Assembly (NCBI GenBank): GCA_949751835.1
Contig: CATKHK010000043.1
Coordinates: 1 to 64,000 of the forward strand
DNA length: 64,000 nt
Direction of reading: 5' to 3'
Source: Blepharisma japonicum
Taxonomy: Eukaryota > Ciliophora > Heterotrichea > Heterotrichida > Blepharismidae
This document shows, one piece after another, positions 7,043 to 26,342 of the stretch. The notes under the pieces were generated by a model. That model was not told the origin of the DNA, made no database searches, and worked only from the letters and a program-made list of their open reading frames with translations. Every line of letters begins with the position of its first letter. Positions within the stretch are counted from its first letter, which is position 1. The translations under genes and the position numbers were made by a program.

Positions 7043-7768
7043 TTAATTATATCCTCCTTTGTGTCTGGGAGGTACCGGTAGATGCCCAACTTTATCCATA
7101 CTCTCCAACAAAGTGAAATCTTTCCTCAAAATAACTTGTGAAACACCAGTATTATAAAAATTCAACAGAGGCTCAAAAAATGAATTTCCCTTATAAATTC
7201 TTTCCTTCAGTAAAAAATAAAACAAAAAATTCAAAAATTTTCCGTGTGTTATCAGCGCAATGCTTGTAAACGGATAATCCTTACTATTCGCATACCCAAT
7301 AAGCCTATTTCACAAATTTCTTGCTCTGTTCTCTGCTTCTTCTAACGTTTCTACAGTTTCTTTGAAAAACCATCCTTTCTCATTGATCTCATTAGGAATT
7401 TCAAACTCAGGAAACATCGTTGCAAGCTGCGACCTTGTAGATCCAGGAAAAGGAACCCCGTTTTTCCTCGGCCCTCTAACTTCATATATATCAGTCCAAA
7501 CTTCTCTTTTCGCATCAATCCCATCAAATGCAAATCTTGCAGTTTGAAGCGTCCGTATCATAGGACTTGCATAAACACACTGTATCTCAAAATTCCTCCA
7601 ATTTTTTTTCATGTGTTCTCCCAATTTTGTCGCTTGTTCTTGCCCGACTGATGTCAAAAGTGGGTCAATTTCTCTATATGATTCATAGTTCTCCCTATGT
7701 GTTAATTTCATATAATTATTGTAAGATTCTGCATGGCGGATGAGAAAGACTTTGAGTCCTTTGCTCAT
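7043..7768 (-). CDS. Histidine phosphatase family protein (phosphoglycerate mutase-like), 241 aa
   Basis: The N-terminus carries the clade signature LIRHAES (catalytic His12 with Arg11), followed by YASPMIRTLQTA with the second phosphate-binding Arg, a GVPFPGSTRSQL insertion and a second catalytic histidine in ALITHGKF after the TGA-Trp at about 7307. Length and motif order fit a single-domain acid or phosphoglycerate-mutase-like phosphatase; the substrate cannot be told. No targeting signal is seen. A decayed copy of its first third lies at 8850-9092, part of a local duplication. Confidence 0.85.
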
Positions 7769-7900
7769 TTTTTTGATAATTTTATTTATGATTAATGAAT
7801 CTCTAGCATTTCAAGAAAGAAGAGTAGTCATTTATAAAGAATAAAATAAGGCGCAAGCCGCTTTATTAAAGATGAAAGTCCTCCTTATAAGTTTGCATTA

Positions 7901-8130
7901 TGGCTCAACAAAAGAGTTTAAAAAAATTAGAGGAGTATTATTAAACTTGAAAATAATTTTTCAGAAAATTGATAAAGGATGCATATTTGAGAAAAAATTG
8001 AGCTACAAATTGAAAAAATAAAACAACAGAAGGGAATAATACAGTTATGAGGGAAATCGAAGCTCGCCACACTATTTTATATATAAGGGAGTTATTACAA
8101 AATCAAAGAGAGCATAAATATTAACATTAA
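7901..8130 (+). pseudogene. Decayed copy of the 79-aa coiled-coil gene at 9229
   Basis: The ATGGCT start, the GAAAATTGA core and the AAGGGAATAATACA and GAGGGAAATCGAAG words of 9229-9420 are all present in order, but with stops and indels. The flank just upstream (7769-7900) also matches 9093-9228, so the whole block was duplicated. Confidence 0.8.
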
Positions 8131-8849
8131 AAAATTAAATTTCAAAAGATATATATATTCAAGCTGCTAAAATCCTAGAGATTAAATTGTTTTTCCTGCT
8201 GTTACTAGAAAAATGAGTATTATAATAAAATGTCTTTAAAATCAAAAATTAATGCTTTCTGAATAGGTGGAATACTTTTAACTATCTATTTTGATTATAG
8301 ACAAGACATCAGATTTCTACAAACTTTTAATTCTGATTAATTCTCCCATTATTAATTGAATGATTCAATTAAAGATTTTAAAATTTTGAATTTAAGTGTA
8401 ATATTTTAATTTGCTAGATCTGTGAAACTAAAACCACTGCCAATTTGCATGATATACTGGTAATTTCATATGATGATTATTTAAAGTGCAAGTGCCGCTC
8501 TTGCTTTGCCATACTTTATTTACTTTGAATTAAATAGACTTTGTTGAGTTCCATAGTAAAAATTAAGTATCGAATGCATTTCCACTATTAAAATATACTA
8601 GGGATAAAATATTCATCACACTCTGTAAATTACATAGCCATTACCCAAATATGATTAAAATTTAATAGCATTTTATGGATAAATTGCAATAATTTTATGC
8701 AACTCTGCTTGTTTGCATGAATCTTAAGAGTAGGAAATTTCATAAGAGGCAATTTATTGTAAAAATGACTCTAAATTTTGAAAAAGCTGATCTCTACCTT
8801 ACTTGTTTGCATTAATCTTTAGAATAGGGAGTTTCATAAGAGGCACATC
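8131..8849. other. Intergenic stretch with a short direct repeat
   Basis: No convincing gene. Two diverged copies of a 45-bp segment (about 8703-8749 and 8804-8850, sharing CTTGTTTGCAT and TTTCATAAGAGGCA) sit about 100 bp apart. The rest is AT-rich and featureless. Confidence 0.45.
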
Positions 8850-9092
8850 AATCTCATCAAATGCAAAATTCACAGCTTGAAGTGTCCTTACCATAGGACT
8901 GGCGAAAACATATTGTATCTCAAAATTCTTCCGATTTTTTCCCCATGTGCTTGCTCAGCTTGTTTTTGCCTAAATGACGCCAAAAATGAGTCAGTTTCTC
9001 TATATGATTCATAGTTATCCTATATGCTAATTTCATTAATTATTGTAAGATTCTGCGTGGCGGATGAGAAAGACTTTGAGTCCTTTGCCCAT
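8850..9092 (-). pseudogene. Decayed N-terminal third of the histidine phosphatase gene
   Basis: It matches 7525-7768 in the same orientation, including the segments for the start, the RHAES region and the YASPMIRTL region, but frames are interrupted and the remainder of the gene is absent. With 7769-8130 and 9093-9468 it defines a tandem duplication. Confidence 0.8.
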
Positions 9093-9228
9093 TTATTTGA
9101 TAATTTTATTAATGATTAATGAATATCTAGCATTTCAAGAAAGAAGGGCAGTCATCTATAAAGAATGAAATAAGGCACTGAGCAGCTTTATTAAAGATAA
9201 AGACCCTGAGCCTTTTCAAATTTGCATT

Positions 9229-9468
9229 ATGGCTTCCACAAAAGAGCTAAGAGAAATTAGAGAAAGCATTATCAAACTGCAATTAGATGGCAAGGCAATG
9301 GAAATTATCCAGAAAATTGAAGCGCTAGAGGACACACATTTGAGGAGAAACGTCGAGTTGCAAAGAGAAAAAGTGCAACAAATGGAAGGGAATAATACAC
9401 TTGTGAGGGAAATCGAAGAAGAAATCATGGATTTGATCCAAGAACTCATATATATTGATCGGACATAA
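9229..9468 (+). CDS. Small coiled-coil protein (79 aa)
   Basis: An ATG-to-TAA frame of 80 codons, almost entirely charged helix with heptad spacing (IRESIIKLQLDGKAMEII and VREIEEEIMDLIQELI). No known family recognised. Its integrity, against the ruined copy at 7901-8130, suggests that it is a real gene under selection. A telomere-like repeat lies 12 bp past its stop codon. Confidence 0.6.
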   Translation: MASTKELREIRESIIKLQLDGKAMEIIQKIEALEDTHLRRNVELQREKVQQMEGNNTLVREIEEEIMDLIQELIYIDRT

Positions 9469-13242: not shown

Positions 13243-13983
13243 TTTTAAATATAATTTCAAATCATTTTAAATAGTGAGAATTTATATGAGTTTTATTAGA
13301 TTTTATATTAATTTTAAAATAACGCACTGATTCAATAGTATTTTTCTTTTAAATTGCGTTATTATCTAGCAGATAAAGCATTTTATATATAATCTTACCA
13401 GTAGCTAATCAAAATTAATGAAAGTTCCTATTGAAGTAAAATGATAATATAAGTATATCCTTTAAATACAGTAGATAAGAGCTTATTTTAAAACACAATG
13501 ATAGGGCTTTGGTCTTATTAGCAATTCTACTAGTGAAATCTCTATTAAAGAAGAAGAAGAAGAAGAAGGAAAATCACTTGGTCAGATATATTTCAAAATG
13601 GAGTGAAATATTATGGGTAAGAAACTTGTTAAATTAATTATATTTCTATATCTAAATGGTATTAACTCTCATAGATATCACAAAGAAATTTGCTTTATAC
13701 CTCTTTAATTCGTGGAATGTTGAGCTGATAAATTAATGATTTTTAATTTAGCTAATTAAGGCTTTCAAAGGTAAATTATAGTAAAATTTTTAAAAATAAA
13801 ATTTTTATTTTGTTTTAATGTTTTTTTTATGTTTATCTACTTAATAATATTTTACTTGACATTGTATTTTTCATTCAAATATTTTTAGAGTTCGATCACA
13901 ATTCTAAATTTCTAAATTTCATTTCGCAAAAATTAAAATTGTTTTTATAGTAATTTATTTTATAAAAAATTAGCTTTATCAAC
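13243..13983 (+). pseudogene. AT-rich stretch with a faint fifth copy of the array gene family
   Basis: About 13540-13620 has a GAAGAA run followed by ATATTTCAAAATGGAGTG, resembling the segment of the array genes that encodes the acidic run and ISIWGVEYL. About 13660-13803 resembles the 5' flank of those genes (14265-14423), including the final TATAGTAAAAT-type box. No frame is open. About 13885-13983 is shared with 18200-18303. Confidence 0.45.
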
Positions 13984-14160
13984 ATCTTTCTATGTTAAGG
14001 CTCAATATGCTTAATTTCTGGCTTTTCTTCACTCAAATTACTTTTAAGGAAATCCTTTTCTTTTTAGCTCATCATTAAGCTGATCGAATGGAAATAGACT
14101 TAAATCTTATTTAATTGATGGAATTAATTATTTTGAAATTGCTGAAGTAGATCCAAATAT
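13984..14160 (-). pseudogene. Truncated 3' tail of an oxoglutarate dehydrogenase gene (remnant 1)
   Basis: The minus strand matches the coding stretch 21469-21660 of the intact paralogue (shared words include TTTTTAGCTCATCATTAAGC and TGCTGAAGTAGATCCAAATAT), covering part of the C-terminal domain. Frames are broken and nothing upstream of this tail is present. Confidence 0.8.
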
Positions 14161-14423
14161 TTTCAATTGTAAATATCCTATAAATTTAGTGAATAGTTTT
14201 TGATGAATTTTATATGAACAATTTTTATTAATTAGCAATAATAAATATATCTTATTAACACTTATAGAAATCATAAAGTTTTACTTTATACTTTTTTAAA
14301 GTCTCTTTACGAATTGTATGTCTCAATTCAGAATATGCCAATACTCTGATGATAAAATAATGATTTTAAATTAGCTTATCAAATGACTTAAAGCCCCCAT
14401 TATAGTAAATTTATAAAAATAGA

Positions 14424-15842
14424 ATGATGATTTCAAACACTGAAGCATTCAATCTTCTTCGCAGATACAATACAATAGTGATGGATCTCATTGAAAGATC
14501 CACTGTTAAGGATCCAATGTCAGAAGACGAAAAAGAAGAGGAAGAAGAAGAAAAAAGCGCTGCAAATGAACAAGAGAATACTATAGGTATTTCAATATGG
14601 GGTGTTGAGTATTTGCATCTACAATCTGAAGTAGACTCAATAAAGGCTTTATATCCAGCCTTTTTTGAACCAAATAATGAGTATATAATGAATTTAGACT
14701 TACTTCAAGAACAAAATGTAGTTAATGTGCTCCTCTATTCTGCAGTCGCAATTCAATGGTCTTCTTTAAATACAACAAACTTATTTTCTGCCAGTGAAAT
14801 CGCTGATGGCACTGCTTTTGGTCACTTTGATATAAATAGAATGAAACGTAACCTCCTAATACTTTCAATACCCAAATATATTGATTTGTTGACAGATCAA
14901 AATATCAATTATGAAATCAAAATGCTTATAAGAACTTTGGCGCTCTATTTTTATATTAGGGCACATAGTGGCGGCATTACACTCAACTTAGAACTGTTCA
15001 GAGATAAAAAGTACAAATATAAAATATGTAAGATTATTCAAAATAATAGAAAATTAGAAGAGTTTTTAAGAAATCTTATTTACACGAATGTTTGCAAGGA
15101 AATATTCAAAAATATAATAATTGAAGATGGAAGTTCTTTTGAATCCAAACTTGAAGAGCTCATTAATTACGCGATAGATAATTCATATTATGCTAACCTT
15201 CCAAAAGGCTTGTATGGACTCATAGCAGTTGGCCACAAAATATTCATTTCAAGTGAATACAAGGTGAAAGAACAAGTAAGAGTAGAAGAAGACATAGAAG
15301 AAGACAAAAATGAAAGCAAAGAAGAAGACATAAAAAATGAAGAAGTAAAAAATGAAGAAGAAGTAAAAAATGAAGAAGAGAAAGATGAAGAAGAGAAAGA
15401 TGAAGTAGAAAAAATTAAAAAAAAATTGAAAAATATAGAAAAAGATGAGTTCGAAATTGGTCCTACACTACTAATACTTTTGTACGAAATAGCACAACTT
15501 TCTACTAGATTTTGGGGGAATCAAATTTCTTATTTTATAACGACTCCCAGAGATTCAAAATGCCCATCAGATTCTGAAAATTCATATGGAGAGTTAGGAG
15601 ACTATCTCGAGTCGTTGCTTTTTGGTACAAAGTTGAAACGCCTTTATAGAGGGGCTGCAATCTTTTTGTTAAATATTAAAAATTGGAACTTGCCACTAGA
15701 TATATTTCAAGATCTCTTTAAAAAGAAGCAACAAATAAGCAAAGCAAAAAAAGGGAAATTCTACCTCCTTCCAAGGGGAAAAAGAAACGGCAACTATATA
15801 AAATTCGGCAGATGTGGGATGTCTTATCGAAATTCACGTTAA
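14424..15842 (+). CDS. Array family protein, copy 1: HExxH-like fold with altered active site (472 aa)
   Basis: An intact ORF with no known family name recognised. Two conserved helical/beta regions are separated by an acidic Glu/Lys repeat (about residues 290-335). At 15483-15497 the motif reads YEIAQ where sister copies 3 and 4 read HEIAH, the zinc-metallopeptidase HExxH signature; a conserved downstream block YGELGDYLESLLFG could supply the third, glutamate ligand. If this family is a gluzincin-type peptidase, copy 1 has lost both zinc histidines and would be a pseudoenzyme. No signal peptide. It shares its 5' flank with copies 2 and 3, so all probably use the same promoter sequence. The metallopeptidase assignment is inference. 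Confidence 0.6.
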   Translation: MMISNTEAFNLLRRYNTIVMDLIERSTVKDPMSEDEKEEEEEEKSAANEQENTIGISIWGVEYLHLQSEVDSIKALYPAFFEPNNEYIMNLDLLQEQNVVNVLLYSAVAIQWSSLNTTNLFSASEIADGTAFGHFDINRMKRNLLILSIPKYIDLLTDQNINYEIKMLIRTLALYFYIRAHSGGITLNLELFRDKKYKYKICKIIQNNRKLEEFLRNLIYTNVCKEIFKNIIIEDGSSFESKLEELINYAIDNSYYANLPKGLYGLIAVGHKIFISSEYKVKEQVRVEEDIEEDKNESKEEDIKNEEVKNEEEVKNEEEKDEEEKDEVEKIKKKLKNIEKDEFEIGPTLLILLYEIAQLSTRFWGNQISYFITTPRDSKCPSDSENSYGELGDYLESLLFGTKLKRLYRGAAIFLLNIKNWNLPLDIFQDLFKKKQQISKAKKGKFYLLPRGKRNGNYIKFGRCGMSYRNSR

Positions 15843-15907
15843 TAATACTTAAAATGCAGTTAATAATAGAGAATTTTAGTTAATTAGAAAGCATCTAAAT
15901 ATAATAA

Positions 15908-16080
15908 GCTTAAGCTATGGTTCAATATGCCTAATTTCTGGCTCTTCTTGCACTCAAATTATTTTTAAAGAAATCCTTTTCTTTTTAGCTCATCATTAAG
16001 CTGATCAAATGGAAATAGACTTAAATCTTATTTAATTGATGGAATTAATTATTTTGAAATTATTGAAGTAGATCAAATAT
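15908..16080 (-). pseudogene. Truncated 3' tail of an oxoglutarate dehydrogenase gene (remnant 2)
   Basis: Matches the same part of the C-terminal coding region as remnant 1, on the minus strand between array copies 1 and 2, with further indels. It is part of the repeated unit rather than a separate event. Confidence 0.8.
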
Positions 16081-16268
16081 TTTCAATTGTAAATATCCTA
16101 TTAACACTTATAGAAATCATAAAGTTGTACTTTATATTTTTTTAAAGTCTCTTTACGAATTGTATGTCTCCATTCAATATATGCCGATACTCTGATGATA
16201 AAATAATAATTTTAAATTTGCTTATAAAATGACTTAAAGCCCCATTTTAGTAAATTTATAAAAATAAA

Positions 16269-17663
16269 ATGACGATTTCAAACACTGAAGCATTAAAGCT
16301 TCTTCGCAGATACAATACAATAGTGATTGATCTCATTGAAAGATCCACTGTTGAGGCTCCAAGATTATCATGAGAAAAAAAAGAAAGCTCTGCAAATAAA
16401 CAAAGGATTACTATAGGTATTTCAATATGGGGTGTTGAGTATTTGCATCTACAATCTGAAGTAGACTCAATAAAGGCTTCATATCCAGCCTTTTTCGAAC
16501 TAAATAATGAGTATATAATGAATTTAGACTTACTTCAAGAACAAAATGTAGTTAATGTGCTCCTCTATTCTGCAGTAGCAATTCAATGGCCTTCTTTAAA
16601 TGCAACAAACTTATTTTCTTCTAGTGAAATCGCTGATGGCACTGCTTTGGATCGCTTTGCTATAAATAGAATGAAGCGTAATCTCCTAATACTTTCAATA
16701 CCCGAATGTTATGATTTTTTGACAGATCAAAATATCGATCCTGAAATCAAATTGCTTATAAGAACTTTGGCGCTCTATTTCTATATTAGGGCACATGCCG
16801 GCGGCATTACACTCAACTTAGATCTGTTCATAGATAAAAAGTATAAATATAAAATATGTGGGATTATTCAAAATAATAGAAAATTAGAAGAGTTTTTAAG
16901 AAATCTTATTCACACGAGTATTTGCAAGGAAATATTCAAAAACATAATAATTGAAGAAGATGGAAGTTCTTTTGAATCCAAGCTTGAAGAGCTCTTTAAT
17001 TATGCAATAGATAATTCATATTATGCTAAGCTTCCAAAAGGCTTGCATGGGCTCATAGCACTTGGCCGCAAAATATTCATTTCAAGTGAATACAAGGTGA
17101 AAGAACAAGTAAGAGTAGAAGAAGACAAAAATGAAAGCAGAAAAGAAGACATAAAAAATGAAGAAGCAAAAAATGAAGAAGAAGTAAAAGAAGAAGAAGA
17201 AGAAGAAGAAGAAGAAAAGAAAGAAGAAGAAAAAATTTTAGAAAAATTAAAAAATATAGAAAAAGATGAGTTCGAAATTGGTCCTACACTACTAATACTT
17301 TTGTACGAAATAGCACAACTTTCTACTAGATTTTGGGGGAATCAAATTTCTTACTTTATAACGACTCCCAGAGATTCAAAATGCCCATCAGATTTTGAAA
17401 ATTCATATGGAGAGTTAGGAGACTATCTCGAATCGTTGCTTTTTGGTACAAAGTTGGAAGTCCTTTATAGAGGAGCTGCAATGTTTTTGTTAAATATTGA
17501 AAATTGGAACTTGCCATTAGATATATTTCAAGATCTCTTTAAAAAGTATCAACAACATTGCAAAGCAAGAAAATGGGAATTCTACCTTCTACCAAGAGGA
17601 AAAAGAACAGGCAACTATGTAAAATTCGGCAGATGTGGGATGTCTTATTGAAATTCACGTTAA
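16269..17663 (+). CDS. Array family protein, copy 2: altered HExxH-like motif (464 aa)
   Basis: The ATG at 16269 aligns with that of copy 1, and the frame runs to a TAA at 17661 with TGA-Trp near 16371 and at 17649. In copy 1 the last of these is CGA (Arg), so the CGA-to-TGA change is sense in this code. Most of the protein is over 85% like copy 1. The acidic repeat differs in length. The active-site motif at 17304-17318 is again YEIAQ, so the loss of both histidines preceded the split of copies 1 and 2. Function unknown. Confidence 0.6.
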
Positions 17664-17773
17664 TAATGCTTAAAATGCAGTTAATAATAGAGAATTCTGG
17701 TTAATTAGAAAGCATCTAAATAAGAATAAGTTTAGTAGATATTTTATAAGATGAAATTTATATAAAGATAATC

Positions 17774-18056
17774 TTTAGCTGCAGAGTAATAGCTTCTTGA
17801 TAAGCTTAAAGTCGAAACTATTTTATCATTATTACAGCTCATCCCTGGCCTTTAAATCATCTAGATTGCACATTAGCAACCTTCCTAAGCTGAGACTCAA
17901 TATATCTAAACAATCCTACATTTTCTGGTTCTTCTATTCCCAAATTGTTGCTTGGAAAATCTTCTGCTTTTTAGCTCATCATTAAGATTATCAAACGGAA
18001 ATGGGCTTAATTCTTCAATTAAAAGTATAGAAATTTTATTATTTTGAAATTGCTAG
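17774..18056 (-). pseudogene. Truncated 3' tail of an oxoglutarate dehydrogenase gene (remnant 3)
   Basis: Corresponds to 21360-21640 of the intact gene, reaching closer to its stop codon than remnants 1, 2 and 4. It is convergent with array copy 2, the same arrangement as array copy 4 and the intact dehydrogenase. Confidence 0.8.
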
Positions 18057-18303
18057 GTTTTTGGTCAAGAAATAGGGATATTTCCAATTGTTTTGTCGCT
18101 AACTGTAGGGGAAGCAAAGAAATTTCTGATAACACTGGCTAGGTAAATTAAAATAAAATGTTTTCTAAATGTTTTAGTCAAAATTTAATGTAAGAAATAT
18201 TTTTATAGTTCGATCACAATTCTAAATTTTTATATTTCATTTCGCAAAAATTAAAATTGTTTTTATAGTAATTTATTTTATAAAAAATTAGCTTTATCAA
18301 CAT

Positions 18304-18479
18304 CTTTCTAAGCTAAGGTTCAATATGCCTAATTTTCTGGCTCTTCTTGCACTCAAATTACTTTTAAGGAAATCCTTTTCTTTTTAGCTCATCATTAAGC
18401 AGATCGAAGGGAAATAGACTTAAATCTTATTTAATTGATGGAATTTATTATTTTGAAATTGCTGAAGTAGATCCAAATA
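18304..18479 (-). pseudogene. Truncated 3' tail of an oxoglutarate dehydrogenase gene (remnant 4)
   Basis: Nearly the same as remnant 1, and preceded by the same flank (13885-13983 versus 18205-18303). It ends next to the 55-bp palindrome. Confidence 0.8.
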
Positions 18480-18490
18480 GCAATCATAAA

Positions 18491-18545
18491 TATACAACTT
18501 TCCGAGGATGGCGCGGAATGGCGCCATCCTCGGGAAAGTTGTATA
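18491..18545. repeat. 55-bp GC-rich near-perfect palindrome, TA-flanked insertion
   Basis: Arms 18491-18514 and 18521-18545 are reverse complements except for one extra C, around a 6-nt loop (GGAATG). The arms begin and end with TATA and contain GAGGATGGCGC, very GC-rich for this genome. The equivalent flanks of copies 1 and 2 lack it: copy 1 reads ATAAATATATCTTATT without the insert. So it entered after the array duplicated, with a TA or TATA target-site duplication. That is the form of a tiny MITE or of a TA-bounded internal eliminated sequence left in the DNA. Confidence 0.8.
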
Positions 18546-18719
18546 TATCTTATTAGCACTTATAGAAATCATAAAGTTTTACTTATACTTTTTTAAAATC
18601 TCTTTAAAAATTGTATGTCTCCATTCAGAATATGCCGATACTCTGATGATAAAATAATGAAATTAAATTAGCTTATCAAATGACTTAAAGCCCCATTATA
18701 GTAAATTTATAAAAATAAA

Positions 18720-20057
18720 ATGACGATTTCAAGTACTGATGCATTAAAGCTTCTTCGCAGATACAATAAAATAGTGATGGATCTCATTGAAAGATCCACT
18801 GTTGAGGCTCCTATGTCAGAAGACGAAAAAGAACAGGAAGAAAAAAAAAAAGCGCTGCAAATGTACAACAGAATGCTATAGATATTTCAACATGGGGTGT
18901 TGAGTATTTGACTCTACAATCTGAAGTAGACTCCATAAAGGCTTTATATCCAACCTTTTTTGGACCAAATAATGAGGATATAATGAATTTAGACTTACTT
19001 CAAGAGCAAAATGTAGTTAATGTGCTCCTCTATTCTGCAGTCGCAATTCAATGGCCTTATTTAGATTCAGCGGTCTTATTTTCTAAGAGTGATATCTCTA
19101 ATGGCACTACTTTTGATCGCTTTGCTATAAATAGAATGGAGCGTAATCTCCTAATACTTTCAACACCCGAATGTATTGATTTTTTGACAGATCAAAATAT
19201 TGATAAATGATTTCAGGACAGGAAATTTTACTATCAAAAATTCACATACGTGGCCATTTTATCAATATTTAACTAAAAAGTACGACTTTAATATATGTGG
19301 GATTATTCAAAATAATAGAAAATTAGAAGAGTTTTTAAGAAATCTTATTCACACGAGTATTTGCAAGGAAATATTCAAAAATATAATAATTGAAGATGAA
19401 AGTATATTTGAATCCAAACTTGAAGAGCTCTTTAATTACGCTATAGATAATTCATATTACGCTAACCTTCCAAAAGGATTGTATGGGCTCACAGCACTTG
19501 ACCGCAAAATATTCATTTCAAGTGAATACAAGGAAAAAGAACAAGTAAGGGTAGAAGAAGACATAAAAATTGAAGAAGTAAAAAATGAAGAAGAAAAGAA
19601 AGAAGAAGAGAAAGATGAAGTAGAAAAAATTAAAGAAAAATTAAACAATATAGAAGCTGATGAGTTCAGATTTGGTCCTACACTAATAATACTTTTGCAC
19701 GAAATAGCACACCTTTCTACTAGACTTTGGAGGAATCAAATTTCTTACTTTATAATAACTCCCAGAGAATTAAAATGCCCATCAGATTCTGAAAATTCAT
19801 ATGGGGAGTTAGGAGACTATCTCGAGTCGTTGCTTTTCTATACAAGGTTGAAACGCCTTTATAGTGGAGCTATACCTTTTTTGTTAAATATTGAAAATTG
19901 GAACTTGCCACTAGACACATTTAAAGATATCTTTAAAACGAAACAACAAAAACGCAAAGCAAGAAAAGATAAATACTGCACTCTTTCAAGGGGAAAAGGA
20001 ACAGGCAACTATGTAAAATTCGGCAGATGTGGGATGTCTTATTGAAATTCACGTTAA
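18720..20057 (+). pseudogene. Array family, copy 3: retains HEIAH but its frame is broken
   Basis: The start and the end (MSYWNSR, TAA at 20055) align with copies 1 and 2. The frame shifts once at an A11 run (18841-18851), and again around 19205-19275, where about 96 bases of the other copies are replaced by 70 unrelated-looking bases with an in-frame TAA. No short intron repairs either. The motif at 19698-19712 is HEIAH, the intact zinc-binding signature, followed by the conserved YGELGDYLESLLF block. The A-run slip could be a sequencing error; the second lesion is real. Confidence 0.65.
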
Positions 20058-20149
20058 TAATGCTTAAAATGCAGTTAATAATAGAGAATTCTGATTAATT
20101 AGAAAGTATCTAAATACAATAAGCTTAGTAGATATTTTATAAGATGAAA

Positions 20150-20472
20150 TTTATATAAATACTTTGAATTGAATAGCTATAATAGATAATCTTTAGCTAC
20201 AGAGTAAATAGCTTCTTGATGAAGCTTAAAGTTGAAACTATTTTATCACTACTACAGCTCATCCTTGACCTGAAAACCATCTCAATTGTACATTAACAAC
20301 CTTCTAAGCTGAGATTCAATATATCTAAACAATCCTACATTTTCTGGTTCTTCTATACCCAAATTGTTGTTTGGAAAATCTTCTTCTTTTTAGCTCATTA
20401 AGATTATCAAACGGAAATGGGCTTAATTCTTCAATTAAAAGTATAGAAATTTTATTATTTTGAAATCGCTGA
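20150..20472 (-). pseudogene. Truncated 3' tail of an oxoglutarate dehydrogenase gene (remnant 5)
   Basis: Matches the 3' flank and last ~90 codons of the gene at 21343 (21325-21640), with several indels and stops, convergent with array copy 3. Confidence 0.8.
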
Positions 20473-20529
20473 TGGATTTTTCCTGGGTACTTCGCCATTT
20501 TATCGTTATAAAATTAAAAAACTATAAAT

Positions 20530-21225
20530 AAAAAATAATTAAAAATTAGAAATGCTTTTAAGAAGTCTTTATTACAGGAGTATTTGCAAAGAATTTTAAA
20601 GGAATAATAGCTGCTAAAGATGAAGATGTTTTTGAAGCCAAGCTTGCAGACTTCTTTAATTATGTGATAGAGAAATCATATTATGCTAACCTTCTAGAAG
20701 GCTTGCATGGGCTAATAGTGATTGACCGTAAAATTTTCATTTAAGCAAATATATTGAGGAAAAAATAGAATTGTAAAAATGTGAAGAAGTTATGAATGAA
20801 TAATATTAATAAGAAAAAGAAAAAGAGAATAAAAAAATTGGGAAGTCGAAGAAGAAGAAGAAGAGGATGAGCTTAAATTTTGTCCTACGCTGATACTTCT
20901 TTTGCACGAAATAGCGCACCTCGCTCATCGATATTGGGACTAGCAAAACTCATACTTTATAATGACGCCTAGAAACTCATATGGAGAGATAGAAGATTAT
21001 TTTGAGTTGTTTGCTCTTTAGTGGTAGGCTAGATAGCCTTTATATTGGAGGAGTAGGGGTTTTATTAAATATTGATAGCTGGAACTCACAACTACATATG
21101 TTTCAATCTGCCTTCAAAATTAGTCAAGAAGATAGCAAATCAAGGAAGGGACAATTTTGATCTCTTCAAAGAGAGAAAGGAATAGCCAACTGTAAAATTC
21201 AATAGATGTGGGATGTCTTATTGAA
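20530..21225 (+). pseudogene. Array family, copy 4: 5'-truncated, decayed
   Basis: Starts in the middle of the family (the equivalent of RKLEEFLRNLIHTSICKE) and keeps order to the terminal GCGMSY segment, with many stops and indels. HEIAH is preserved at 20905-20919. It lies tail-to-tail with the intact dehydrogenase gene 118 bp away, and probably represents the original neighbour arrangement of the duplicated unit. Confidence 0.75.
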
Positions 21226-21342
21226 ATTCGCGTTCATAAAATTAAAATAATATTAATAATAGATAATTTTTATGAAGAAAGTCTTTAAATTGAATAAATA
21301 TTTTAGAAGATGAAATTTATATGAATACTTTAAATTAATGAG

Positions 21343-23760
21343 CTATAATAAACGTTCTTTAACTGCAGAGTAAATAGCTTCTTGATGAAGCTTAAAGTCG
21401 ACGCTATTCCCGTCACTGCTGCAGCTCATCCCTGGCCTTGAAACTAGCTCAATTGGCCCTATAAACAACTTTCTAAGCTGAGGCTCAATATACCTAAACA
21501 GCCCTACATTTTCTGGCTCTTCTTGTACCCAAATTGCTTGCTTAGGAAATCCTCTTCTTTTTAGCTCATCATTAAGCTGATCAAATGGAAAAGGACTAAA
21601 TTCTTCAATTAATAGTATAGAAATTTTATCATTTTGGAATTGCTGAAGTAAATCCAAATATATTTTTCCATTACAAATAAATAATTTCTCACTTCCTCCG
21701 TTCACATCATTAAAGAAAAATGGCTGAAACTTTGTTCCTGGAGCTAAACTATCTATATCTGAAATAGCAAATTTATTTCTTAGCCCGCTTTTAGGTGTCC
21801 CTAATATACAAGGAATTCTAAATTTCCTATGTACTTGTTCTCTCAACAAATGGAAATAATTTGATGGGATAACTGAATTTACAACTCTCATATTAAATTG
21901 TGCTGATTGGGTATTATTCACAAGCTCTAAAGCTCTTCCTATTCTTGCTGAAGAATGATCAGGACCCATCCCTTCTTGTCCATTAGGCAAAAGAACTACA
22001 ATTCCATTCTGCCTTATCCATCTTGCTTCACCTCCAGCTATAAATAAATCAATCATCGGCTGAGCCATATTAGCAAAGTCTCCAAACTGGGCTTCCCATA
22101 AAACTAAGTTATTTGGGTCATCCATAGAATATCCTACCTCAAATCCTAGCACAGCAAATTCCGATAACAAGCTGCTCACAGCTCTGAATTTTCCAGGCTT
22201 TATCTGCTGGAAAGGAATGTGCAGCTTTTCTGTTTCTTGGCAGTAAAACCCTGCATGTCTTTGAGAGAAAGTTCCTCTTATAGTATCTTCTCCACAGATT
22301 CTTACATTGAACCCTTCTTGAAGTAAACTTCCAATTGCCATTGCTTCAGCTGTAGCCCAATCAACTTTATTTTTCGCTAAATTTTCAAGTCTTCCTGAAA
22401 TATGTCCTTTTGCGATTATTGGGTGGATTTTGAAGTCTTCAGGGACTTTTACGCTGAGCTCAGCAATTTCTTTGAGTTTTTGGGTATCATAGCCACTTTC
22501 AATATGGGTTCGGTTGTGCAGAGGAGTCATATTCTGCCATGGGCCTCTAAAAGAATCATTAAGTCAATTGTTTTCGTATCCTGTTGTATTTCCTTGGAGG
22601 CTTTCTTCGTATTCTTTTTGTAAATGGTCGTCAAACTGTTTTCTTATCTTTTTATAGACAGCTTCAGTAAAAGTCCCATCATTTATGAGTTCTTCAGCAT
22701 ATAAAGCTGCAGTTTGCTTCATATTACTTATATTTTTATACATAAGTGGGTTTGTAAAAGAAGGGTTATCAAGCTCGTTATGTCCATATTTTCGATACCC
22801 AACTAAGTCAATTATAAAGTCTTTTTTGAATTTATTTCTATATAATATTCCCAGTTTACCTATTTTGCAAGCTTCTTCAGGGCTTAGTACATTTACATGA
22901 AATATGGGCGCTCCAATAATTTTATAAACATCTGTGCAATATTTAGTTGACCTTAAATGGTCTTTACAGGTAGTGAAGCCGATTTGGTTGTTCAAAATCA
23001 TATGTAAAGTTCCATTGACACTAAAATCAGGCAGATTTGCCATTTGGGCTGCTTCATAAATAATTCCTTGTCCAGAAACAGCAGCATCTCCATGATATCA
23101 TATATGCAAAGCTTCTTTTCCCGAGTCAATTTTTGACCTAGTTTTTCCTATCCCTAATGTCCCTCCAATCTCCAAATGTGCTGGCCTATGCAGCATGCTG
23201 ATTTTAAGCCCCTTGAATTCTTTTCTCTCAAAAGTTGTCGATATCATTTGTGATACGTCATCAGTGAAATAATAACAAGAATCGTTTAATTCAGGCGGCA
23301 TCAAAGATTTGCCTTGGATATTCCAAAATAAATTTCTTATTGGATAGTTCATAAAGCTTGCAAGGAGTGCCAATTTCCCTCTATGATGAAACGACAAAAT
23401 AGCTGCTGATTGAGGATGTAAGTTATATTGAGCTTCAATTATCGAGAAAGTCAATGGAATAAAAGATTCCATGCCTTCTCCTGAAAAGCGCTTATATGAG
23501 CTGAATTTTTTTTGCATAAACTCTTCAAATGAATCACACATCTGAAGCTGCCGAAAAATATTAATTTTTTGTGAAGCATTAAGAGGAGTTGTCATGAAGG
23601 ATTCATAATTAGTATTCAGCCAGTCTTTTTCTTCCTGTGTCCACACATGGTCAAATTCCGCTTTTACAGGGCCATTGTGCAAGTCTTTGCCTGGCCTTTG
23701 GTATTTTAGTGGGTTAATTTTTGGTTCCTCAGAAAACTTCCTAATTAAATAGCGCCACAT
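21343..23760 (-). CDS. 2-oxo acid dehydrogenase E1 (OGDH/DHTKD1 family), paralogue A (805 aa)
   Basis: Thiamine-diphosphate-dependent E1 of the 2-oxoglutarate (or 2-oxoadipate) dehydrogenase complex in the mitochondrial matrix. The N-terminus MWRYLIRKFSEEP looks like a short presequence. Seen in order: GEGMESFIP, HHRGKLALL (substrate-loop His), PAHLEIGG, HGDAA with GQGIIYE (TDP site), NNQIGFTT, GYRKYGHNE, DWATAEAMAIGSLLQEG and GTFSQRHAG. TGA-Trp at about 23095 and 22560 joins three frame blocks. It is 60-70% like paralogue B but more diverged at usually fixed places (HHRGKL for AHRGKL, PAHLE for PSHLE). The N-terminal peripheral domain of bacterial and animal OGDH is missing, as in paralogue B. 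Which 2-oxo acid it uses is not decidable. Confidence 0.85.
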
Positions 23761-23854: not shown

Positions 23855-26287
23855 TTAGCTTTCATAAAAGTGGCTTCTAATAGACTGGAAAATGGCCTCT
23901 TGGTGGGCTTTGAAGTCGCCAGAATTTCCTTCAGAAGAGCAGCTCAGTCCTATCCTTGAAATTAAATCAATCCCTCCAAACAATTTTCTAAGCTGAGGCT
24001 CTATATATCTGAAAACCCCAGTGTTTTCAGGCTCTTCTTGGACAAAAATCGCTTTTTCTGGGAATCCTCGTCTGCTGAGCTCTGCATATAATTCATCATA
24101 TGGGAAAGGAGATAACTCCTCTATCAATAAAATCGAAATTTTGTCCTGCTGGAACTGCTGCAGAAGCTCTACATAAATTTTCCCATTGCAAATGAACAAT
24201 TTGTCGCTTCTCCCTCCATTAATATCTTTAAAGAAAAATGGCTTAAAAGAGGTCCCAGGTCCCATGGACTCCAAATCTGAATAAAGAAGTTTGCTTCTTA
24301 AGGCACTTTTAGGAGTCCCAAGGACCAGTGGCCTTCTGAAATCTTTTTTGACTTGCTCTCTTAATAAATGGAAATAATTAGATGGGATAATACAATTGGC
24401 AACTTGGAGGTTAAGCTGTGTGGCTTGAAGGTTGTTGACTAGCTCTAGATATCGGCCGATTCTGGCTGAAGAGTGGTCAGGTCCTGCTCCTTCTTGTCCA
24501 TTAGGAAGAAGAAGCACAAGTCCACTTTGTCTGAGCCATTTGGCTTCACCTGATGCTACATAAGTATCAATGATTGGCTGGGCCATATTGGCAAAGTCTC
24601 CATATTGGGCTTCCCAGAGGACTAGATGTTTGGGATCGTCTAAAGAGTATCCATACTCAAATCCTAAGACTGCAAGCTCTGATAAAAAGCTATTTATGAC
24701 TGTAAATTTGCCTGGCTTTAGCTGCTCAAAAGGAATAAATAATTTTTCAGTTTCCTGGCAATAATATCCAGCATGTCTCTGTGAATAAGTCCCTCTTACT
24801 GTATCTTCTCCACATATCCTCACATTATACCCTTCCTGGAGCAAGCTTCCAAATGCCATTGCTTCGGCTGTCGCCCAATCGACTTTTCCTTCAGCAAGAT
24901 TTGCTTTTCTATTTCCTATATGTCCCTTCACAATCAGTGGGTGTACTTTTATATTATCCGGAATATTTACAGTCATTTCTGCAATTTCCTTCAATTTCCC
25001 TACCTCAACCCCAGTCTCTATATGCCCTTTCTTATGAAATGGAGAAATCCCAGCCCATTGGTCTTTAAAGGAATCCACTTTGATCCAACCTTTTTCGTCC
25101 TTTTCTAGCCCTTCAATATTACTAGCTTCAAATTCTTTATTTAAATGCTCTTCCAGCTGTTTTTTCATTTTTTCATAAACTTTTTCATTGATAACACCTT
25201 CATTTATAAGCTGTTCTGCGTAATTTGTGGCGCAGCCTTTCATTTCTCCTCTAATCACCTTATACATTAGCGGGTTTGTAAAGGAAGGCTCGTCTACTTC
25301 ATTATGGCCGTATTTTCGATAGCCTATTAGGTCAATGGCAAAATCATTTTTAAAGAGTTTTCGGTACTCTACAGCTAACTGGCCTGCTTTAACGACCTCT
25401 TCAGGACTGTAAGCATTTACGCGGAGAATTGGGGCTCCTATAATTTTGAAAATATCTGTGCAGTGTGGGCTAGATCTTCCTAAAGCTTCAGGGGTGGTAA
25501 AACCTACTTGGTTATTTGCGACGATATGGATACAGCCGTTCACTGAAAAATCTGGCAAATGAGCCATTTGGGTAGTTTCGTAGACGACACCTTGGCCGGC
25601 TAATGCAGCGTCGCCATGAATCCATAAATGAAGGGCTTCTTTTCCAGAGTCAATTTTGGATTTTGTTTTTCCTAGGCCAACAGCACCTCCGATTTCTAAA
25701 TGCGAAGGGTTGTGGAGCATACTGATTCTTAGACCTTTTAGTTCTGGTCTTTCTGAAGTGACTGCAATATGTGTGCTTATATCATCAGTAAAGTAAAACT
25801 CCTTTTCATTTAATTGTAAAGGCAAAACTGAATTCCCTTTGATTTTTCAGAATAAATTCCTTATAGGGTAATTCATAATACTAGTTAGAACTGCTAGCTT
25901 TCCTCTATGAGCAATTGTCATAATGACGTTTGAGTTTGGCTCAACCCCATGCTGAGATTCAAGGACTGAATAAATAGATGGGACTAAGGCTTCTAAGCCT
26001 TCTCCAGAATACCGCTTATAAGTGCTGAATTTTTTGTGTACAAAACGTTCAAAGCTCTCTGCCATCTGAAGAAGACGTAAGGTCTGAATTTTTTGTGAAG
26101 CTTTAAAAGGAGATTCCATTAGCCTTTCATAATGAGAAATTAGTCAGTCTTTTTCCTCAGAGCTGCGGACATGGTCAAACTCTACTTGTATAGGACCACC
26201 ATAGGCACTGTGTCCTGGGTTAGGATATTGGAGTGGATTTGTTTTTGGATATTCTGTGGAAAACCGTCTAATTACATATCTCCACAT
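23855..26287 (-). CDS. 2-oxo acid dehydrogenase E1 (OGDH/DHTKD1 family), paralogue B (810 aa)
   Basis: The ATG at 26287 gives MWRYVIRRFSTEYPKT, a good mitochondrial presequence with an Arg-rich helix and an RFST cleavage context. Motifs are canonical: GEGLEALVP, AHRGKLAVL, NPSHLEIGGAVG, HGDAALAGQGVVYE, NNQVGFTT, GYRKYGHNEVDEPSF, GTYSQRHAG and GPDHSSARIGR. TGA-Trp codons occur at about 25844 and 26150. It is the more conservative of two tandem paralogues 94 bp apart, hence the likelier housekeeping enzyme. Its start is divergent from the next gene's start by only 55 bp, implying a shared, very compact promoter. Confidence 0.9.
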
Positions 26288-26342
26288 ATTTTATTTGTAA
26301 TTACCTAAAAGGAATTATATGAGATAATTTTTTGTAATAAAA

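Follow-up and report, generated by a model that had tools for sequence, protein, structure and literature searches.

The window analysed here, meaning the whole 64,000-nucleotide stretch at positions 1 to 64,000 of Blepharisma japonicum contig CATKHK010000043.1 (assembly GCA_949751835.1), carries at 13877-21270 a tandem array of an uncharacterised gene, consisting of three main copies and a diverged partial copy (20532-21270). A Glu/Lys-rich stretch of the gene differs in length between copies. Copy 1 (14424-15842) is an open frame of 472 amino acids in which no Pfam family was found, copy 2 is open provided that TGA encodes Trp, and the frame of copy 3 (18720-20054, plus strand) is apparently broken at more than one place. 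Each of these three copies is preceded, on the reverse strand, by a 3' remnant of a 2-oxoglutarate dehydrogenase gene; the remnant before copy 3 (18328-18479, minus strand), from the 3' part of the E1 gene, matches 21503-21660 at 84%, a region within a minus-strand frame (21343-22530) that has Pfam OxoGdeHyase_C. Elsewhere in the window, 7513-8062 and 8846-9418 belong to a duplicate that has diverged, its two pieces being 83% and 77% identical, and that overlaps part of what we take, from its sequence, to be a phosphoglycerate-mutase-like gene.

The neighbouring 2-oxoglutarate dehydrogenase E1 genes at 21346-23760 and 23858-26290 are open only with TGA read through as Trp, and the in-frame standard-code stops of both fall where the paralogue has Trp; UGA likewise encodes Trp in B. 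stoltei (PMC9942806). The window contains 27 frames that span 250 codons or more without TAA or TAG, 22 of which contain TGA. Because about 70% of the 39,799 IESs of the B. stoltei germline, set against a 41-Mb somatic genome, sit inside genes (PMC9942856), the uninterrupted state of these long frames argues for macronuclear sequence, although frames chosen by length furnish an argument for this origin and not a test of it. Overall, the DNA looks Blepharisma-like and macronuclear. One of the long frames, of 595 codons on the minus strand (585-2369), uses 9 TGA and 2 TGG codons, compared with 0 to 3 TGA in each of the other 26, and might not represent a genuine gene.

In the noncoding flank of copy 3, the segment at 18491-18545 reads TA-TACAACTTTCCGAGGATGGCGC-GGAATG-GCGCCATCCTCGGGAAAGTTGTA-TA. 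It consists of a near-perfect palindromic element of 51 bp (TACAAC...GTTGTA; 18493-18543, no strand assigned) between a left TA (18491-18492, no strand assigned), which is a candidate target duplication of ambiguous register because the flank is TATA-rich, and a right TA (18544-18545, no strand assigned) that 174 bp separate from the start codon of copy 3 at 18720. The arms, TACAACTTTCC-GAGGATGGCGC and the complement of GCGCCATCCTCGGGAAAGTTGTA, differ by a single extra base in the C/G run of the right arm. With the flanking TAs included, they form about 25 pairs with one bulge around the 6-nt loop GGAATG, and their symmetry extends into the TA borders and ends at TA on both sides.

Allowing one bulge, this 25-bp stem is the best in the 64 kb, whereas the best stem in 100 first-order Markov simulations of a 64-kb sequence was at most 17 bp (mean 14.0). 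The single-strand DNA fold of 18486-18550 has a calculated energy of -27.8 kcal/mol (z -11.3), which none of 200 shuffles equalled. Since the stem exceeds the simulated maximum and the fold outdoes every shuffle, the palindrome is not a chance product. It was the only return of an ungapped compact-hairpin scan of the window (loop at most 40, penalised score at least 13), and as pair I12 it is among the 25 longest of the window's 88 pairs of widely spaced inverted repeats with arms of at least 16 nt, the arms of these 25 being 70-95% complementary. With 28 of its 51 bases G or C (55%), it stands well above its surroundings (~30%); 230 of the 63,949 overlapping 51-bp windows, a count that includes the element itself, are at least as GC-rich. 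A first-pass annotation of this DNA had described both the high G+C and a hairpin with two near-identical arms, a one-base difference and a 6-nt loop, and these descriptions hold. Its figure of 55 bp for the insert is right with both flanking TAs included; the element itself measures 51 bp, and the net gain is 53 bp.

The loop GGAATG and the adjoining GCGC together make up GGAATGGCGC (18515-18524, plus strand), which closely resembles GGATGGCGC of the left arm (18506-18514). A similarity to the neighbouring arm as good as that of the loop would be shown by 37 of all 4,096 six-mers, and GGAATGGCGC looks like a small internal tandem duplication. Because its removal leaves 41 bases that are self-complementary save for one extra base, the ancestor was probably a palindrome of ~41 bp without a loop, to which a 10-nt slippage duplication would later have added one. 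A loop-less TA-bounded palindrome has the look of two transposon ends that have lost their interior, and some repair events leave the same structure.

Comparison with the other array copies defines the insertion site. As the first-pass annotation had proposed, copy 1 lacks the insert, reading GCAATAATAAATATATCTTATT (14235-14256, plus strand) where copy 3 has GCAATCATAAATATA-palindrome-TATATATCTTATT. With the flanks read by eye, copy 3 shows a net gain of 53 bp and a floating terminal direct repeat ATATA; in this TA-rich flank TA, TATA and ATATA all fit, which leaves the exact register of the proposed TATA/TA insertion point ambiguous. The left anchor of this comparison is just 15 bp (14 identical to copy 1) because copy 3 is without the 75 bp immediately left of the site (14160-14234 in copy 1, plus strand; direct repeat TA, flanks by eye), and it is further weakened because a similar 14-mer, ATAGAAATCATAAA, recurs downstream at 18562. 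Within copy 3, 13 bp separate the 75-bp deletion from the palindrome. The deletion and the insertion are both eye readings, MAFFT having failed to return the 75 bp as one gap and having paired the palindrome with copy-1 sequence rather than opening a clean insertion; self-BLAST at word size 11 breaks at the palindrome stretch and at word size 7 continues through it as one 86.5% piece. Since the short anchor adjoins a deletion and default alignments show no clean insertion, a complex replacement at the site instead of a simple insertion is possible. The difference between copies 1 and 3 is fairly recent, as their flanks are 95.4% identical over 285 bp.

Copy 2, which had been put forward as another empty site (near 16100), does not qualify as one: the whole site lies inside 74 bp of copy 1 (14179-14252, plus strand; direct repeat TAT in the MAFFT alignment) that are missing from copy 2, so that the empty site is documented by copy 1 alone. 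Three differences between tandem paralogues hence meet at one spot, with 74 and 75 bp absent from copies 2 and 3, respectively, and an additional 53 bp in copy 3. The overlapping 74-bp and 75-bp pieces (14160-14252) have nearly the length of 72 bp that is common among Blepharisma IESs.

Three pairwise MAFFT comparisons of the array copies gave 15 gaps of at least 10 bp, nine of which lie in the coding region and were excluded from the count (three of the nine have TA in a low-complexity repeat). The six noncoding rows include gaps of 74 bp (repeat TAT) and 25 bp (repeat A), two rows that represent a single difference of 108 bp (repeat T) where the alignment meets its edge, and two rows of 17 and 55 bp without a repeat, which are the MAFFT rendering of the palindrome and were replaced by the eye readings of 75 bp (TA) and 53 bp (ATATA). 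Among the five distinct noncoding differences, three (53, 74 and 75 bp) are TA-bounded by eye and one on the MAFFT gaps. When deletions of these lengths are placed at random in this DNA, 4-6% of them have a TA-containing repeat (6.3% at 53 bp), a share that rises to 15-20% among placements with a repeat of 2 bp or more, as in microhomology deletion. The TA-bounded differences are only suggestive of IES-type events, and microhomology-mediated deletion fits them too. It is conceivable, if rather improbable, that the site records a length limit of the excision machinery, such that the 74- and 75-bp pieces would be excisable, being kept by copies 2 and 3 as germline IESs and by copy 1 as ordinary DNA, and the 53-bp palindrome would be too short and stay somatic.

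Searches for relatives returned no second copy of the palindrome in the 64-kb window (best non-self match E 2.4), where neither a source for the arm sequence nor an element with the same ends was found; a longer single-arm pattern likewise had 0 matches in viral contigs. Neither search turned up the autonomous transposon with shared arm ends that the first-pass annotation had suggested looking for. The pattern GAGGATGGCGC-(0 to 30)-GCGCCATCCTC is also missing from viral contigs and occurs in 46 stretches of prokaryote genomes. We read these stretches as unrelated bacterial sequence and not as relatives because the outer arm is preserved in none of the 46, with at most 7 of its 13 bases matching. 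BLAST with 65 bases gave four phage records (E 6) and nine plasmid records (best E 0.1 among the five of the nine listed), and none of the phage and plasmid matches listed covers at least 80% of the query. The best plasmid match listed (H5, Alloyangia pacifica) involves 41 of the 65 bases at 83% and falls within a bacterial coding sequence, with a 9-bp inner stem preserved letter for letter; at E 0.1 in 7.3 Gb, it is taken as chance rather than as a relative, and shows that part of the palindrome core can arise by chance. A new family, as had been suggested, thus finds no backing in a single window copy without a convincing relative in the phage, plasmid, viral and prokaryote searches.

Identity as an RNA gene was rejected, since the window as a whole yields no Rfam match at gathering score and ARAGORN found no tRNA or tmRNA. 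A local Rfam scan of 18300-18800 at E of at most 1 yielded nine sub-threshold matches, the best of which, RAGATH-7, has E 0.0092 and 22 bits against a cut-off of 111.8. The palindrome is not followed by a T-run either.

The Blepharisma precedent on which that annotation drew is real, palindromic and MITE-derived IESs having been described in B. stoltei (PMC9942856); in the literature searched, this paper alone joins Blepharisma, IESs and the term palindromic, and no description of a ~50-bp palindrome in a Blepharisma macronuclear genome was found in the main-text passages covered. According to that paper, three-quarters of B. stoltei IESs are TA-bound, the commonest terminal repeats being TA, TAT/ATA and TATA; forms that are TA-bound and forms bearing terminal inverted repeats (TIRs) are abundant, palindromic IESs are called numerous, and one Tc1-type element has the target duplication TATA (PMC9942856). 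Short IESs show size peaks from 65 bp up in 10-11 bp steps, and the GC content of IESs as a class is 33.3% (PMC9942856). With ATATA, the palindrome has the TA-containing terminal direct repeat of an IES; its net 53 bp, by contrast, falls about one helical turn below the shortest size class, the first peak at 65 bp, a lower limit that is not sharp evidence because filters on length (under 50 bp) and retention score had been applied to the published IESs (PMC9942856).

Several known elements share part of this anatomy. Two palindromic repeat families of B. stoltei IESs, for which the authors suspect an origin from MITEs, resemble the palindrome in symmetry when compared by description, and rnd-1_family-87 accounts for about a quarter of the 153-bp IES peak in the same source (PMC9942856). 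BogoMITE and other MITE-derived IESs (MITIES) are, like the palindrome, short and noncoding, with inverted terminal repeats and a T/A-rich target duplication in a Blepharisma-type genome. BogoMITE is reported as ~389 bp long, with a C-rich TIR, the target duplication TAA/TTA and ~8,000 copies, mostly in IESs (PMC9942856), whereas the palindrome has 51 bp, other ends (TACAACTTTCC), TA borders and one copy seen, in apparently macronuclear DNA. The TATA target duplication of the B. stoltei Tc1-type transposon BstTc1 would suit the palindrome site, but the 38-bp C-rich TIR given for it starts GTACCCCC and has no likeness to TACAACTTTCC (PMC9942856); runs of C or of G in the window are all shorter than six. 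Outside ciliates, the organelle and nuclear palindromes of the green alga Volvox carteri are similar in averaging 50 nt and forming small-loop hairpins in noncoding DNA, those of the plastid being 39-55% AT, and differ in that their loops are mostly TAAA/TTTA and their organelle copy number is very high; a TA duplication is not mentioned for them in the passages considered (PMC2670323).

Among the processes that could have produced the palindrome, a repair event, by fold-back, template switching or capture of a small hairpin of foreign or organellar origin in the course of the rearrangement by which the adjacent 75 bp were lost, strikes us as somewhat unlikely. The 13-bp distance between palindrome and deletion, the single copy, a GC content well above that of the flanks and a centre almost without a loop would all suit such an event, as would the occurrence of organelle-type short palindromes in Volvox nuclear DNA (PMC2670323), but the window holds no source for the arms and the symmetry stops at TA on both sides. 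We regard as unlikely that the palindrome is a TA-bound palindromic IES which is normally excised and has escaped excision, in part or entirely, in the macronuclei that were sequenced, or which came from micronuclear reads in the assembly. Its size, below the 65-bp peak, and its GC content, 55% against 33.3% for the class (PMC9942856), both speak against this, and the 27 long frames, even though picked by length, suggest an assembly generally without IESs; against these points stand the prevalence of TA-bound and of palindromic IESs with the repeats TA, TAT/ATA and TATA (PMC9942856), and the short-IES sizes and borders of the neighbouring 74-bp (TAT) and 75-bp (TA) copy differences.

Two further explanations appear very improbable. 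A role upstream of the copy-3 gene, as a functional hairpin or as a palindrome to which a protein binds, would be in keeping with the strong fold and the 174 bp to the ATG; yet it is copy 3 whose frame looks broken, the open-frame copies 1 and 2 do without the palindrome, and neither an Rfam family at gathering score in the window nor a T-run after the palindrome supports such a role. An artefact of assembly or library preparation, such as an adapter or a chimeric palindrome, might be suspected from a symmetric sequence in single copy, but homologous flanks border the element left and right at a TA, and nothing resembling a vector or an adapter came up when phage, plasmid, viral and prokaryote sequences were searched.

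Our leading explanation, held tentatively, is that the TA-bounded palindrome is a minimal MITE-like element that resides stably in somatic DNA. It is observed as a palindrome with TA borders, one empty paralogue and a single copy in the window, and its 25-bp stem with one bulge supplies the terminal inverted repeats of a MITE. The mini-MITE originally proposed thus survives in its TA-bounded, MITE-like anatomy and in one empty paralogue, only one of the two claimed empty sites having held. The reading is weakened by the expectation that a MITE should recur, by a duplication that lies in a TA-rich stretch with its 15-bp left anchor beside the 75-bp deletion, and by ends unlike the C-rich TIRs described for Bogo and BstTc1 (PMC9942856).

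Under the MITE-like explanation, two terminal inverted repeats of ~20-25 bp each, joined almost back to back, would have entered the noncoding flank of one tandem-array gene copy at a TA (or TATA) target, presumably placed there by a TA-targeting transposase of Tc1/mariner or similar type supplied in trans. The palindrome would then stay in the macronucleus, perhaps because its 53-bp span is under the shortest common IES excision span, the 65-bp first peak in the B. stoltei data (PMC9942856), and, lying outside any coding frame, it would experience no selection for removal.

In summary, the palindrome upstream of array copy 3 is probably a minimal mobile-element remnant of which one copy is known. 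At present it is one well-formed palindrome in a type of genome already known for TA-bound, palindromic elements, and its value is that of a pointer to an easily made genome-wide count. If confirmed as a mobile element too short for excision, it would show how MITE fragments can settle in a ciliate somatic genome and would offer a naturally occurring case on which to test the minimum length that the domesticated excisase requires.
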